A stretch of DNA of 64,000 nucleotides, taken from NCBI GenBank assembly GCA_002781745.1, contig PFFW01000042.1, forward strand, positions 1 to 64,000, given 5' to 3'. Position 1 is the first letter of the stretch; the number at the start of each line of letters is the position of its first letter. Source of the DNA: Rhodospirillales bacterium CG15_BIG_FIL_POST_REV_8_21_14_020_66_15. GTDB lineage: Bacteria > Pseudomonadota > Alphaproteobacteria > Rhodospirillales > Casp-alpha2. The position numbers and the translations under genes are program-made. Below the pieces are notes generated by a model. That model saw nothing but the letters and a program-made list of their open reading frames with translations. It did not search any database and had not been told where the DNA came from. This document shows, in pieces, positions 30,840-59,302 of the stretch.

Positions 30840-31162
30840 GTTGAGTGTCTACTCTCTCGATCAAGTATTCTTAGCCCGCGCGTCCCCACGTGATCGTGAC
30901 GGGGACGGCAGGGTCGCCAGCATCATGCAAGCATTCTCGGCCGGGCCTGCACAGTCGCAGCTACCCGCCTCACGAAACGCCCGCGTATGTCGGTAAGAAA
31001 GAAGGCCGGATCGACGTGGTCGAGTCCGGCAAGCGATCGAAATTCGACCTGGGTGGGAGTGTCGCTGGCCACACAAGGCGCCGGCCGGACGCGGAAGTCA
31101 AGGGAATTCGCCGAGCGCGTTTCCCGCCCCTCCGCGCCACGCGCCCGCATTTTCGCCCGCCG

Positions 31163-31786
31163 TCAGGCCGCGAGGATATCCGGATCACCCTGTTTCTCGA
31201 AGCATCCGGCCGCGAAGGTCCAATCGGCGAGGTGGTCGAAAAAGGCTTCCAGGTATTTCTGGCGGGCGTTCTGATAGTCCAGGTAATATGCGTGCTCCCA
31301 CAAATCACAGGTCAGCAGCGGCTTCTGCCCGGCGGCCTGCGGCAGGCCCCCGTTGGCCGTGCTGACCACGTCCAGGGTTCCGTCGGACTCTTCGACCAGC
31401 CAGACCCAGCCCGACCCGAACCGGGCCATGCCTTCGCTGATGAACTTGGTGCGCAGATGCGGCAGGGAACCGAAGGTCTCCTCGATTCTGCTCGCCAGTT
31501 TGCCGCCCGGCGCGTCCAGCCGGTCGGGCGACATGCAGAGCCAGAAGAACCCGTGGTTCCACGCCTGGGCCGCGTTGTTGAATACGTCGGTGTCGCCCTT
31601 TTCATGGGCGCCTCGGACGACGTCCAGCAGGTCCAGGCCTTCGTAGTCCGTGCCCTTCACGGCGGCGTTCAGCTTGTCGACATAGCCTTTGTGGTGCTTG
31701 CCGTGGTGGATGTTGAGGGTCTGCTCCGACATGTACGGCAGCAAGGCGTCCGCAGCGTACGGCAGGTCGGGAAGCTTGAAAGTCAT
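31163..31786 (-). CDS. superoxide dismutase (Fe/Mn family)
   Basis: MTFKLPDLPYAADALLPYMSEQTLNIHHGKHHKGYVDKLN; AQAWNHGFFW; DLWEHAYYLDYQNAR. Confidence 0.93.
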   Translation of the reverse strand: MTFKLPDLPYAADALLPYMSEQTLNIHHGKHHKGYVDKLNAAVKGTDYEGLDLLDVVRGAHEKGDTDVFNNAAQAWNHGFFWLCMSPDRLDAPGGKLASRIEETFGSLPHLRTKFISEGMARFGSGWVWLVEESDGTLDVVSTANGGLPQAAGQKPLLTCDLWEHAYYLDYQNARQKYLEAFFDHLADWTFAAGCFEKQGDPDILAA

Positions 31787-31839
31787 GACGTGCTCCTTCT
31801 TTTCTGGTCCGTGATTCGTGGCAGGGCGCGATGGCGACG

Positions 31840-32331
31840 TCAGGCCGGGTCCTTCCGGGCCCTGTCCGGCGCCGGCGAAGGTCCGGATTTATCCCGTTCC
31901 ATGATCAGGGCACGGAACTCCTCGACCTTCTCTCCGAGGGCCGCCAGGCCCTGGCGGGTCGCTTCCTTGGCATCCGCCCATTCGCTCGCCGCCGCCGTTT
32001 CCAATTCAGCGATCTGTTGGCGGACGGCGGCGCGCTGACGGTCGATGGCTTGGCGCGCCTCGCGCCATTCAGCCTTCACGTCATCGGCGACCTCGGCACC
32101 GGCGTCGGCCGCCCGCGCCGTGGCTGCGTTCAGCTTGGAGTCCAGCGCCCTGGCCTTGCTTTGGGCCCAGTCGACGAAGGCGTCGACCGTTTCCCCGGCT
32201 TCCGTCTCGGGCGGATCGGCCGTGTCTCCGGCGGCCAGGGCCGGGCCCTGCTGGACGGCCAGGACGACCGTAAACGCGGCAGCCGAGGCAAGGGGTACGA
32301 TTGCTCGGAGATCGAAAATACGATGTTTCAT
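31840..32331 (-). CDS. hypothetical exported coiled-coil protein
   Basis: MKHRIFDLRAIVPLASAAAFTVVLAVQQGPALAAGD then helical charged sequence. Confidence 0.65.
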   Translation of the reverse strand: MKHRIFDLRAIVPLASAAAFTVVLAVQQGPALAAGDTADPPETEAGETVDAFVDWAQSKARALDSKLNAATARAADAGAEVADDVKAEWREARQAIDRQRAAVRQQIAELETAAASEWADAKEATRQGLAALGEKVEEFRALIMERDKSGPSPAPDRARKDPA

Positions 32332-32491
32332 AAGGTCCTCTCCTGCTGTCGGAACAATGGATGAGGGGCGCGGCCTCTCATGACACGGGTGCGCGCTTTT
32401 GAGGTCTGAAGGAAACCGGCAGATCGCAAGGACCGCTTTCGTGTGATGAAACGCTTTTCCGTGAAGTGGAAGGACGCGGCCAGGAACCACC

Positions 32492-32971
32492 TCAGGCCGC
32501 GCGGGTCAGGCGACGGCGCGCCCGCGACAGGCCGCTTTTCACCGTGCCGACGGCGATGTCCAATTCGCGTGCCACGTCCTGATAGCGTTTGCCTTCGAAC
32601 ACCACCAGGTGGAGAATCCACCGGTCCCGCGGTTTGAGGTCCGCCAGGGCGCGATCCAGATCCTGCAGGCGCAGGTGATCGATCTGGTCCGGCGGCTGGT
32701 GGGTTTCCTCCAACCACTCCTCCACGGGCACGTGGTGGCCGCGCCGACGGCGGCGGCGCATGCTGTCGATGAATAGATTGTGCATGATGGCGAACAACCA
32801 GGACCGGATGTCCGTTCCCGCTTCGAACCGGTCAATGCGGGACATTCCCCGTTCCAGACAGTCTTGCATCAGGTCGTCGGCCCGGTCGGGCGCGGGCTCA
32901 AGGGAACGCGCGTACCGGCGCAGGTGGGGGATCTGGGCCTCGATCTCCTGCATGAGCCGCTCGTCGGTCAT
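32492..32971 (-). CDS. ECF-type RNA polymerase sigma factor
   Basis: IPHLRRYARSLEPAPDRADDLMQDCLERGMSRIDRFEAGTDIRSWLFAIMHNLFID (sigma region 2); KPRDRWILHLVVFEGKRYQDVARELDIAVGTVKSGLSRARRRL (region 4). Confidence 0.92.
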   Translation of the reverse strand: MTDERLMQEIEAQIPHLRRYARSLEPAPDRADDLMQDCLERGMSRIDRFEAGTDIRSWLFAIMHNLFIDSMRRRRRRGHHVPVEEWLEETHQPPDQIDHLRLQDLDRALADLKPRDRWILHLVVFEGKRYQDVARELDIAVGTVKSGLSRARRRLTRAA

Positions 32972-33083
32972 GGACGCCACCATAACATAATTCGACCGGG
33001 CCTGCCGAACCGACCGCAGAAAATAACATAATATATTGATAAATATGGAAAATTTCTGGCCGAAAAGTATTTCAGGCCAGTTC

Positions 33084-33108
33084 GGAACCTTCCGTCGCCG
33101 GGGACGTT
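33084..33108 (+). promoter_or_regulatory. candidate EcfG (general stress response) promoter GGAAC-N16-CGTT
   Basis: GGAACCTTCCGTCGCCGGGGACGTT in the ECF sigma / 49-aa protein intergenic region. Confidence 0.55.
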
Positions 33109-33150
33109 GATCTGTTTGCCGGGTGTATGCATGGAAGGAGGGAGCAGATC

Positions 33151-33300
33151 ATGGACACGGACCCCACGGGTTATCCGCCCCAAGGGCAATCGGAAAATCC
33201 GCCCGCCAATCAACAGAAGAGGGGACGCGATATCATTGTCTTCGGTGTGCTGATCCTGATCGGCGCCGTCGTCGTCGCGACCCTGATCATGAAAACCTAG
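33151..33300 (+). CDS. small single-TM protein, 49 aa
   Basis: MDTDPTGYPPQGQSENPPANQQKRGRDIIVFGVLILIGAVVVATLIMKT*; GGAGG RBS at about 33136. Confidence 0.7.
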   Translation: MDTDPTGYPPQGQSENPPANQQKRGRDIIVFGVLILIGAVVVATLIMKT

Positions 33301-33408
33301 TAGAGCCTTTCCCGGTCAGATAGAGTCAATTCTGATGGCACTGTGCCGGGCCGCCCGCGCGGCTCCGTGCAGGCAGGTCGGGGAGGGCCGGCAACAACGC
33401 GGGGCAGC

Positions 33409-34071
33409 TCAGGCCCCCGTCACCCGGCGTTTCATTTCGGCAACGGCCGCGTGCGGGCTGGTCAGCACCGGCAGCCCCGCACGGACGCCGATCTCCGCCG
33501 CCAGCGGCGCCATGGAGAACTGCGCCAGCACGATACAGCCGCAGTCGTTCAGGCGCGGCGCGGCCTCGACCACGGCCCGATCGTGCGCGTCGCGCCGCCC
33601 CGCCCCCAAATCGGCCCAAGCGCCCTCGACCAGCAACGGCACCACCGTCAGGTCGACGGACCGATGGCGCGCCAGGGCCTCCATCTCGGCCGTCATGTCG
33701 GGCAGGGTCTGCGGATGGGTCGCCAGCAGGCCGACCCGGCCGCCCTGCGCAAGCGCGGCGTCCAGCACGGCCTCGTTGGGTTTCATCACCGGCACGTCGT
33801 GGCGCGCGGCGACCTCGTCGATGGCTCTGCCGAACGCCGAGCAGGTGAACAGGATGCCGTCGGGCCGACGCGCCGCCGCATAGGCGGCAAGGTCCAGGAA
33901 CCGGTCGATCAATGGCCGCGTCAGCGTCCCCCCGGCGGCGGCCAGGTCCAAGGTCAGGCTTTCGTCGAGGAGTGTCCAATGCGCGGCTTCAGGCCACAGG
34001 TCGCGGAACGCGGTTTCGACCGGCAGAATGGCTTCGCGGGTGGCATGGACAAGGGCGATCTGTTTCGTCAT
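33409..34071 (-). CDS. aspartate/glutamate racemase-family protein (Asp/Glu/hydantoin racemase superfamily)
   Basis: IALVHATREAILPVETAFRDLWPEA; ILFTCSAFGRAIDEVAARHDVPVMKPNEAV; DCGCIVLAQFSMAPLA. Confidence 0.85.
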   Translation of the reverse strand: MTKQIALVHATREAILPVETAFRDLWPEAAHWTLLDESLTLDLAAAGGTLTRPLIDRFLDLAAYAAARRPDGILFTCSAFGRAIDEVAARHDVPVMKPNEAVLDAALAQGGRVGLLATHPQTLPDMTAEMEALARHRSVDLTVVPLLVEGAWADLGAGRRDAHDRAVVEAAPRLNDCGCIVLAQFSMAPLAAEIGVRAGLPVLTSPHAAVAEMKRRVTGA

Positions 34072-34413
34072 GGCCCGCGAATAAAGCGAGAAATCGAGGA
34101 CGTTGGCAAACGTTTCCGCACCGGTCCGGGGATTCCCCCTGCAATCCGAATGGTTAAGGAATCACATACCTTTAACCGGACCGGCTGGCCGGAAGGCATA
34201 TTCCTGATTGGTCGCATTTGTGTCAGTCTGACCGCGTGTCGATGCAGCTTGCGGAACTGCTTGGGGAAATGGATGCAGCACGATCGCCAAGGAACGCCAA
34301 AACGGGGTAACATCCAGGCAACCTCCGCAGCATTGCGCCCGCCTTCGCTTCGGAACCAACCGGCGCGAAAGGTCGACGGTCTACATGCACAACCGCGACC
34401 CGGATGAGCGAGA

Positions 34414-36390
34414 ATGTGGCCTTCATTCCTTGATCCGACCCGTTTCTTCGCGATCGACATCGACTCGGCGGCGGTCCTGCCGGCAACCTACGACCCTGCG
34501 CTGATTGTCCTGTCGTTCTTCATCGCGACCCTGGCAGGTTTCGCCTTCATCCATCTGCTCCTCCGCATCGCCGAACACGAACGCACCGCCCAACGCCATC
34601 TGTGGATGACCGGCGGAGCCTTGATCATGGGATTCGGCATCTGGGCCATGCACTTTGTCGGCATGCTTGCCTACCAGCTGCCGATCCGCGTCGGCTATGA
34701 CCCGCTGATCACCCTGGCGTCCGCCGCCCCCGCCGTCCTGGCGAGCGCCTGGAACCTGCAGATCGTCGCCCGCGCCCACGTTTCCAGGGTCCGCCTGTTC
34801 CTGGGCGGCATCGTCCTGGGCGGCGGCATCGGCCTCATGCATTACACGGGGATGGCGGCGGTCGAGTTCGACGCCTTCATCCGTTACGACCCGCTGTTGT
34901 TCGCCCTGTCGCTGCTGGTCGCCGTGGCGCTGGCCATGTGCGCGCTGTGGGTCGCCTTCCGTGCCTCCCGGCGAAACGTGATTCGCACTCTGACGGGCGA
35001 GGTCCTGTCGGCCTTCCTGATCGGCCTTGCCGTCGCCGGCATGCACTACACGGCCATGAGTTCCACGATCTGTTTTGCGCGCGAGGGCGCGTCGGCGAGT
35101 ATCCAGAGCATCGGGTCCGGCGTGCTGGCCGCGGCGACGACCGTCGTCGCCACGCTGATCCTGATCGCCGGCATCGCCGCCGTGGTGTTCGACCGCCGTC
35201 TGGCGTCGGAGATACTCGGTCGCACGGAGGCGGATAACCGCGCGCACCAGACGGCGCAACGCCTGCAATTGATCATGGACAACGTGGCCGACGCGGTGAT
35301 CACGCTGGACGACCGGGGTGTGATCGAGTCCTGCAACCGCGCGGCCGAGCACATCTTCGGCCGATCCCCCGACGCCATCGTCGGGCAGCCCTTGACGGCG
35401 CTGATCACCGAGACCGACGAAGGCATGAGCAATCGCAAGCACAACTTGATGCGCTACTTCCTGGATCCGGCATCGCGCAAGGCGCAGCGGGAAGGCTTCG
35501 AGGCAATCGGTCGGCGGAGCGACGGTTCGATGGTGTTCCTGGAGGCCGCCCTGTCGGAAGTCCGGGAGGGAGGGCGCACGATCATCGTCGGCGCGTTGCG
35601 CGACATCACCGAACGCATGGTCGCGGCCCTGGCCCTTGCGCAGGCGAAGGACGACGCGGAACGCGCCAACCACGCCAAATCCGAATTCATCTCGCACATG
35701 AGTCACGAACTGCGCACGCCCCTGAACGCCGTCATCGGCATGGCGGACGTGCTTCTGCGGTTCGAACCATTGCGCGGCGACCCGGAACGTCTGGTCGAAT
35801 ATCTGGCCGACATCCGGACCAGCGGCACCCACCTTCTGGCACTGGTCAACGAAATCCTCGACGTATCGATGATCGAGTCGGGCAACCGCACCCTGAACAC
35901 GGAAACCTTCGACGCGGTCGAGGAAATCGAAAGCATCCTGCGTCCCCTGCGTGCGACCCTCAGTCGCGACAGAGCGAACCTGTCCGTCACCGCACCGGAC
36001 ACGCCGGCGATGGTCGCCGCCGACCGGCAGTCGTTCCGCCAGATCGTCCTGAACCTGGCCGGCAATTCCATTGCCCACGGGGGCGAGGACGTTAAGGTCG
36101 AAGTCCGCATCGACACCGACGTCCCGGACGACTACGTGCGGATATGCGTGGCCGACGACGGTCCGGGCATTCCCGACAGCCTGATCGACGCCATCGGCCA
36201 GCCCTTCCCCCAGGTCCAGCCCGCCTATTGCGCCGCCGCCACGGGCAACGGCGAAAAGGGGGCCGGGCTGGGCCTTTACATCGTCAACCGCCTGATCGCC
36301 CTCAACGGCGGCAAATTCTCTCTGGAAAGCAAGCCGGGTCACGGCACCATCGTGACGACACTGTGGCCCAAGACGGCGAACGCTGCTTAG
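34414..36390 (+). CDS. MHYT-domain / PAS / histidine kinase
   Basis: GIWAMHFVGMLAY, GIGLMHYTGMAAV, AGMHYTAMSS (MHYT repeats); PAS; KSEFISHMSHELRTPLNAVIGMADVL (H-box); GAGLGLYIVNRLIALNGGKFSLESKPGHGT (ATP lid). Confidence 0.94.
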   Translation: MWPSFLDPTRFFAIDIDSAAVLPATYDPALIVLSFFIATLAGFAFIHLLLRIAEHERTAQRHLWMTGGALIMGFGIWAMHFVGMLAYQLPIRVGYDPLITLASAAPAVLASAWNLQIVARAHVSRVRLFLGGIVLGGGIGLMHYTGMAAVEFDAFIRYDPLLFALSLLVAVALAMCALWVAFRASRRNVIRTLTGEVLSAFLIGLAVAGMHYTAMSSTICFAREGASASIQSIGSGVLAAATTVVATLILIAGIAAVVFDRRLASEILGRTEADNRAHQTAQRLQLIMDNVADAVITLDDRGVIESCNRAAEHIFGRSPDAIVGQPLTALITETDEGMSNRKHNLMRYFLDPASRKAQREGFEAIGRRSDGSMVFLEAALSEVREGGRTIIVGALRDITERMVAALALAQAKDDAERANHAKSEFISHMSHELRTPLNAVIGMADVLLRFEPLRGDPERLVEYLADIRTSGTHLLALVNEILDVSMIESGNRTLNTETFDAVEEIESILRPLRATLSRDRANLSVTAPDTPAMVAADRQSFRQIVLNLAGNSIAHGGEDVKVEVRIDTDVPDDYVRICVADDGPGIPDSLIDAIGQPFPQVQPAYCAAATGNGEKGAGLGLYIVNRLIALNGGKFSLESKPGHGTIVTTLWPKTANAA

Positions 36391-58150: not shown

Positions 58151-59302
58151 TTACTTCCAGACGGGATCGAAACCGGCCTTTTCAAGGGCCGCGGCGCGCA
58201 CCTTCATCCATTCCGACTGGAAGGCGTCATCGGCGACCTTCCTGCCCTTCATGTCCTTCCATGCGGCGGCCAGTACGCCCTGCCGCTTGATCAGCGACTG
58301 GTTGTGCTTTTCCATGGCGTCGGTCCAGGCGCCGATTTCCTTCCAGTATTTCACGGCGGCTTCATGGTAGGGAACGGCCCAGGTAAAGCTCTGGTTCCTG
58401 AGCGACCAGCCTTCCATTTCCTTCATCACGCTCTTGAAGCTGTCGTACTTGGAATGGATCGCCTTGGTCATGGAATAGACCATGCCGGCGTCCTGGTTGG
58501 CGCGCGTGATCAGGATCGGATAGGGATAGGCGCCGCCGACGTGCGGCTTGTCCTTGGAAATTCCGGCGCCCAGGGTTGCCGTGTGCTTGACGAAATAGGG
58601 CGCTTTCGCCAGCAGCCGCTTCCAGCCCGCTTCATCGTCATGGGGCATGGCCGGCCAGTGGATTCCGCGCGGCGAGGCTTCCAGCTTCTTGCACAGGCCG
58701 GACGCGGTCGACGCGAAGGCGGCGTCCGCCTGGCCGTTGACCAGGCCGTCCCACGACTGGCTGAAGCCCGAAAATTCGACCTTCTGAACGTCGTCCCAGG
58801 TCAGGCCCGCGAAGGCCAGCATGGCCTCGGTTCCGATCACCAGGGCGGGCGCGGACCGCACGTAGGCGACCCGTTTGCCCTTCAGGTCCTTGGGCGTCTT
58901 GATGTTGGCGTCGGCCGCGGTGCCGACCGACAGGTTGGCCTCCGACGTGGCGGACATCAGCAGCCGCACGGGCTGCGGCCCCCAATCCTTGTCGGCGAAT
59001 TCGAAGACGCCTTCGGACGCGAAATAGGTGCCTGAACCGTTGGCCGAGAACTGCACCTTGTCGGTCATCAGGGGGGCCAGGCGGGAGATGTCGTTCTTGC
59101 CCGGCACGATGCGCAGGCTGACGCCGAAGCTGTCCTTCAGCGCCTTGCCGATGGCGACGGCCTGGGCATAGCCCGTGGACTTGGTGCCGTAGGCCGACCA
59201 GGCCAGGGTGTCGGGCAGTTTCACGTCGTCGGCCTTGGCCGCTTGCGGCAAGGCCAGGGCGGCCGCCACGGCGCCCGCCAAAAGAAGTCGGTATGCTTTC
59301 AT
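58151..59302 (-). CDS. TAXI-family TRAP transporter solute-binding subunit
   Basis: Signal peptide MKAYRLLLAGAVAAALALPQAAKA; AWSAYGTKSTGYAQAVAIGKALKDSFGVSLRIVPGKNDISRLAPLMTDKVQFSANG. Confidence 0.92.
   Translation of the reverse strand: MKAYRLLLAGAVAAALALPQAAKADDVKLPDTLAWSAYGTKSTGYAQAVAIGKALKDSFGVSLRIVPGKNDISRLAPLMTDKVQFSANGSGTYFASEGVFEFADKDWGPQPVRLLMSATSEANLSVGTAADANIKTPKDLKGKRVAYVRSAPALVIGTEAMLAFAGLTWDDVQKVEFSGFSQSWDGLVNGQADAAFASTASGLCKKLEASPRGIHWPAMPHDDEAGWKRLLAKAPYFVKHTATLGAGISKDKPHVGGAYPYPILITRANQDAGMVYSMTKAIHSKYDSFKSVMKEMEGWSLRNQSFTWAVPYHEAAVKYWKEIGAWTDAMEKHNQSLIKRQGVLAAAWKDMKGRKVADDAFQSEWMKVRAAALEKAGFDPVWK

Follow-up and report, generated by a model that had tools for sequence, protein, structure and literature searches.

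The question that this locus raises is whether an EcfG-type promoter motif, lying between an ECF sigma gene and a divergent, very short open reading frame, is a functional promoter, and whether it belongs to the general stress response or to a more local circuit. We investigated it in a stretch of 64,000 nucleotides, hereafter the window, which comes from a draft genome (G000; the other G labels denote the related genomes with which it was compared). The features on which the argument depends are as follows.

31840-32331, minus strand: sll1863-like protein of stress type, predicted to be secreted and encoded downstream of the ECF gene (NF052504 at 21.6 bits, cut-off 35)
32492-32983, minus strand: EcfG-like ECF sigma factor, listed at 163 aa and with a conserved second start at 32971
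33084-33108, plus strand: EcfG-type promoter motif GGAAC-N16-CGTT (GGAACCTTCCGTCGCCGGGGACGTT), 42 nt before the ATG at 33151
33084-33088, plus strand: -35 element GGAAC, in extended form GGAACCTT, invariant in the five orthologs of the genus
33105-33108, plus strand: -10 element CGTT, invariant in the same five orthologs, behind a 16-nt spacer of constant length and varying sequence
33136-33145, plus strand: Shine-Dalgarno-like GGAGGGAGCA, whose last six bases are part of a block that does not vary in the leader alignment
33151-33300, plus strand, ATG to TAG: predicted 49-aa single-pass membrane protein (MDTDPTGYPPQGQSENPPANQQKRGRDIIVFGVLILIGAVVVATLIMKT), recognised by orthologs, dN/dS and AlphaFold

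Concerning the short reading frame, dN/dS ranged from 0.12 to 0.48 in all ten ortholog pairs, and the length differences among the orthologs, which measure 45-49 aa (45 aa in G006), consist of whole codons; these comparisons show purifying selection on the small ORF. The alignment has a conserved start (MDTxPT) and a conserved membrane block around RD-IFGV-I-IG-VV-AL-TK, with a variable middle. AlphaFold predicted a single helix at residues 19-48, with mean pLDDT values of 95 and 87 for the final two blocks of ten residues, and residues 1-18 were left without predicted structure. The topology is predicted to be N-in/C-out because K/R residues precede the helix. The single-TM protein of 49 aa proposed by the first-pass annotation was thus borne out in silico, both by coding selection and by the predicted helix. 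An alternative in-frame ATG at 33127 would extend the product to 57 aa; since this ATG is shared only with G001, 33151 is the likelier start. A structured RNA in place of the ORF was considered and rejected, as no Rfam match was found in 31000-34500 and the fold z-score was 0.19.

No Pfam or NCBIfam family exceeded its cut-off for the 49-aa protein, a profile run against 297 genomes from the order recovered the five genus members and no convincing others, and no match was obtained on plasmids. Weaker matches considered as distant homologs (best E 3.5e-5) were rejected, since they lie inside open frames of 138-957 codons. Among the genomes searched, the protein is, by these profile comparisons, restricted to the genus, and it represents an undescribed family.

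The promoter motif was found where the first-pass annotation had placed it, 42 nt before the small ORF. The window contains the GGAAC/CGTT consensus twice, where 1.18 matches (sd 1.20) would be expected, which is the chance level. The second match, GGAAC-N17-CGTT, lies at 58373-58398 on the minus strand. Experimentally defined EcfG promoters display the same consensus as the site at 33084-33108 (PMC7083833). The divergent pair of ECF gene and small ORF recurs in four further species within the genus (G001, G002, G005 and G006), and in all five orthologs the N16 spacer is kept and the distance from the start of GGAAC to the ATG is exactly 67 nt. Invariant bases in the five-ortholog alignment amounted to 9/9 in the core, 3/16 in the spacer and 8/28 in the leader outside the ribosome-binding region, and the stretch that separates the start of the ECF gene from the motif was mostly unalignable and differed in length among the orthologs. 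Given 28 invariant columns among the 67 of this segment, the probability of invariance in all of nine given columns is ~1.6e-4, on a footprint that represents about four independent lineages because G002 and G005 are close relatives. Conservation upstream of homologous small ORFs, the lack of which had been named beforehand as grounds for rejecting the motif, was therefore observed in five of five genus orthologs. The chance-level count is offset by this conservation of the promoter geometry.

The spacer forms an inverted repeat in three species (L011, L012 and L013; window equivalent 33089-33104), namely TTGCGG-T-CCGCAA, TCGCG-TCC-CGCGA and TTGCG-TTC-CGCAA, one pair differing in both of its bases. 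The repeat is absent from the same place in G000 and G001, and it may be an operator or have arisen by chance.

The divergent ECF sigma gene was likewise found as first described, at 32492-32983 on the minus strand, and its product matched PF22029 PhyR_sigma2 (64 bits, cut-off 27), Sigma70_r2 and Sigma70_r4_2, covering sigma regions 2 and 4. Its best NCBIfam model scored 124.8, below the EcfG-like cut-off of 185. The nearest solved structure was chain 5uxx, titled 'RNA polymerase sigma factor', which we take to be the Bartonella EcfG/NepR complex. In a tree of 54 sequences, the sigma factors of the genus formed a clean clade (100/99), and the deep branches, including that of the canonical EcfG encoded next to PhyR in G042, were left open. 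We call the protein EcfG-like and not EcfG because it falls below the NCBIfam cut-offs and its deep placement is open; by these measures, it is diverged from canonical EcfG. Of the eight genomes of the genus, five have both the ECF gene and the small ORF, and three (G003, G004 and G007) have neither. This ECF is the sole PhyR_sigma2-type sigma of the closed genomes G002 and G006. G000 carries two further EcfG-like ECFs, at G000:C180:835-996 (L129) and on G000:C74 (L130), and a 261-aa ORF after the former is a candidate that looks membrane anti-sigma-like by eye. No divergent motif was found at ECF relatives of 30-49% identity outside the family (Rhizobiales, Betaproteobacteria).

The neighbourhood at 31163-36390 of the window was common to the genus relatives where it was read, and consists, in order, of genes for an Fe/Mn superoxide dismutase, the sll1863-like protein, the ECF sigma factor, the small ORF, an Asp/Glu racemase-family protein and an MHYT-PAS histidine kinase (34414-36390). 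We infer that the sll1863-like gene is associated with the ECF/small-ORF unit; no GGAAC/CGTT motif with one mismatch or fewer was detected upstream of it in the window. Comparable arrangements were noticed in another genus of the family, where G030 and G070, which have no PhyR, harbor EcfG-like ECF genes flanked by GGAAC-N16-CGTT promoters, and behind these promoters lie genes for DUF1328 and for a small lipoprotein. G030 also has a second EcfG-like ECF, divergent from a GGAAC-N16-CGTT promoter whose operon includes a gene for an sll1863-like protein. The motif positions in this other genus are 1082 and 2026 in L128, 1081 and 2025 in L122, and around 1206 in L117.

The explanation that we consider probable is a functional ECF-type promoter of a monocistronic small membrane-protein gene, recognised by the divergent EcfG-like ECF, which works without PhyR. 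The missing PhyR points to the divergent sigma as the likely activator, and activation is likely to be direct because the presence or absence of the ECF gene and the small ORF agrees in 8/8 genus genomes and because EcfG-like genes of the other genus lie beside such promoters. The two further EcfG-like ECFs of G000, a footprint of only about four lineages and the lack of the motif next to the ECF relatives of 30-49% identity outside the family weigh against this explanation. On this mechanism, the ECF sigma would become available, either via its own abundance or via a putative anti-sigma, possibly under stress, and would direct RNA polymerase to GGAAC/CGTT; transcription would start ~7 nt downstream of CGTT, and the 45-49-aa product would be anchored in the inner membrane by its single helix. 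An envelope or stress output is the probable role of this protein, an effector being favoured because the cytoplasmic tail is short and variable; an anti-sigma role is possible and less supported.

That second role, in which the small protein, made under ECF control, would be tethered to the membrane and restrain the divergent ECF as an anti-sigma or feedback inhibitor, is unlikely in our assessment, and it survives best among the alternatives. The strict co-occurrence and adjacency with one ECF, the sole strict-motif promoter found in the genus and the conserved, positively charged segment directly before the helix would all suit such a function. The idea is kept alive because no nepR-like gene or other anti-sigma candidate was seen beside the window ECF, as against an annotated downstream anti-sigma gene in 4/5 of the plasmid-borne ECF relatives inspected. 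However, the cytoplasmic part comprises only ~25 residues, mostly variable in sequence and length, and with residues 1-18 lacking a predicted fold we recognised no sigma-binding domain; known membrane anti-sigmas possess a larger one. The small ORF is also divergent from the sigma gene and not cotranscribed with it.

A canonical general stress response, in which an EcfG controlled by PhyR/NepR drives the small gene within a large regulon, is quite improbable. The switch of PhyR, NepR and EcfG is described as occurring in essentially all free-living Alphaproteobacteria (PMC3892343), and the fit of the site to the EcfG consensus (PMC7083833) and the kinship of the ECF with EcfG, with 5uxx as the best structural relative, are what this reading would expect. 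Nevertheless, PhyR (model NF006623) exceeded its cut-off in none of the 48 genomes of the family, including the whole of G000. The same model was positive in G042 (363 bits) and G046 (329 bits) of the same order and in Caulobacter, it passed the cut-off in only 2/25 families sampled within the order, and G025 gave a sub-threshold, partial match covering the receiver half only. NepR (PF18557) had no match over its cut-off in G000 or its relatives, and its absence is not counted as evidence because the model also misses the PhyR-positive G042 and G046. EcfG-like ECF sigma factors persist in many PhyR-less members of this 48-genome family.

Again, the number of motif matches does not resemble a large regulon. 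The draft G000 contains 76 consensus matches against 49 for the reversed control, an excess that was not repeated in the closed genomes of the genus, where G002 has 59 against 99 and G006 has 69 against 92. The 81 matches analysed comprise every one in G006 and 12 selected sites in G002; 71 of them fall inside called genes, as determined by a simple and approximate gene caller that missed G006's own 45-aa ORF, with gene context read only around retrieved matches. The stricter form GGAACYTT-N13/14-CGTT occurs one to three times per genus genome, and it precedes a conserved gene only at the ECF/small-ORF locus; its other matches in the genus lie within open frames or are not closely followed by a gene. 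Strict-motif matches in G003, G007, G013 and G024 were considered as promoters and rejected, as all of them lie in long open frames. For the full consensus, many target promoters across the genome were not found, and these counts speak against a general regulon and in favour of a circuit that is local to the GGAAC/CGTT promoter. Further targets may have been missed because EcfG promoters tolerate deviation, the regulons in practice also using GCAAC and variant -10 boxes (PMC7083833). With PhyR absent, the full consensus not enriched and the strict form promoter-placed only here in the genus, a PhyR-driven regulon is unlikely and the canonical explanation is largely refuted. The membership in the PhyR/EcfG general stress response that the first-pass annotation had suggested is consequently the part of it that found no support, as the ECF also scores below the EcfG-like cut-offs and the tree does not place it with canonical EcfG.

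A chance match of the motif, with the small gene transcribed by the housekeeping sigma, is extremely improbable, for the window count is at chance level but the nine core bases are invariant at fixed spacing (9/9, P ~1.6e-4), and no sigma-70-like site was found in 32300-33450.

Returning to the local circuit driven by the divergent sigma, a PhyR-less family that keeps EcfG-like sigma genes beside EcfG-type promoters suggests that parts of the system can outlive the switch, and a pair of one sigma and one promoter is small enough for complete testing. A further extension, which we regard as highly doubtful, is that the family lost PhyR and kept EcfG-like sigmas and promoters as local circuits, the circuit of this genus having one sigma and one promoter, with the 49-aa product as a minimal membrane-tethered regulator of the sigma that replaces NepR/PhyR.

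In comparison with known systems, the locus resembles EcfG (ECF15) with PhyR/NepR in its GGAAC-N16-CGTT promoter, in a PF22029 match over the cut-off and in 5uxx as nearest PDB chain. It differs in that PhyR occurs in no family genome searched, no nepR-like gene lies beside the ECF, no genome-wide regulon emerges by the full consensus and the sigma is diverged from canonical EcfG. Non-canonical EcfG paralogs, such as S. meliloti RpoE5 and R. etli EcfG2, are similar as EcfG-like sigmas located away from phyR; paralogs of this kind with few targets or only one exist, and overexpression of RpoE5 yielded a single putative target (PMC6180224). Their genomes, however, keep PhyR/NepR and a canonical EcfG, whereas G002 and G006 lack PhyR and encode a single PhyR_sigma2-type sigma. 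ECF29 (S. meliloti RpoE8) likewise has no identified anti-sigma, a GGGAAC-type -35 and a promoter match beside the sigma gene (PMC6180224), but its -10 is GCATCCAA where here it is CGTT. Finally, the 49-aa protein differs from small membrane proteins such as DUF1328, so placed in G030, in that no Pfam or NCBIfam model exceeds its cut-off for it, it has a single helix and its distribution among the searched genomes is confined to the genus, and it shares with them the arrangement of a short membrane protein encoded behind an EcfG-type promoter.
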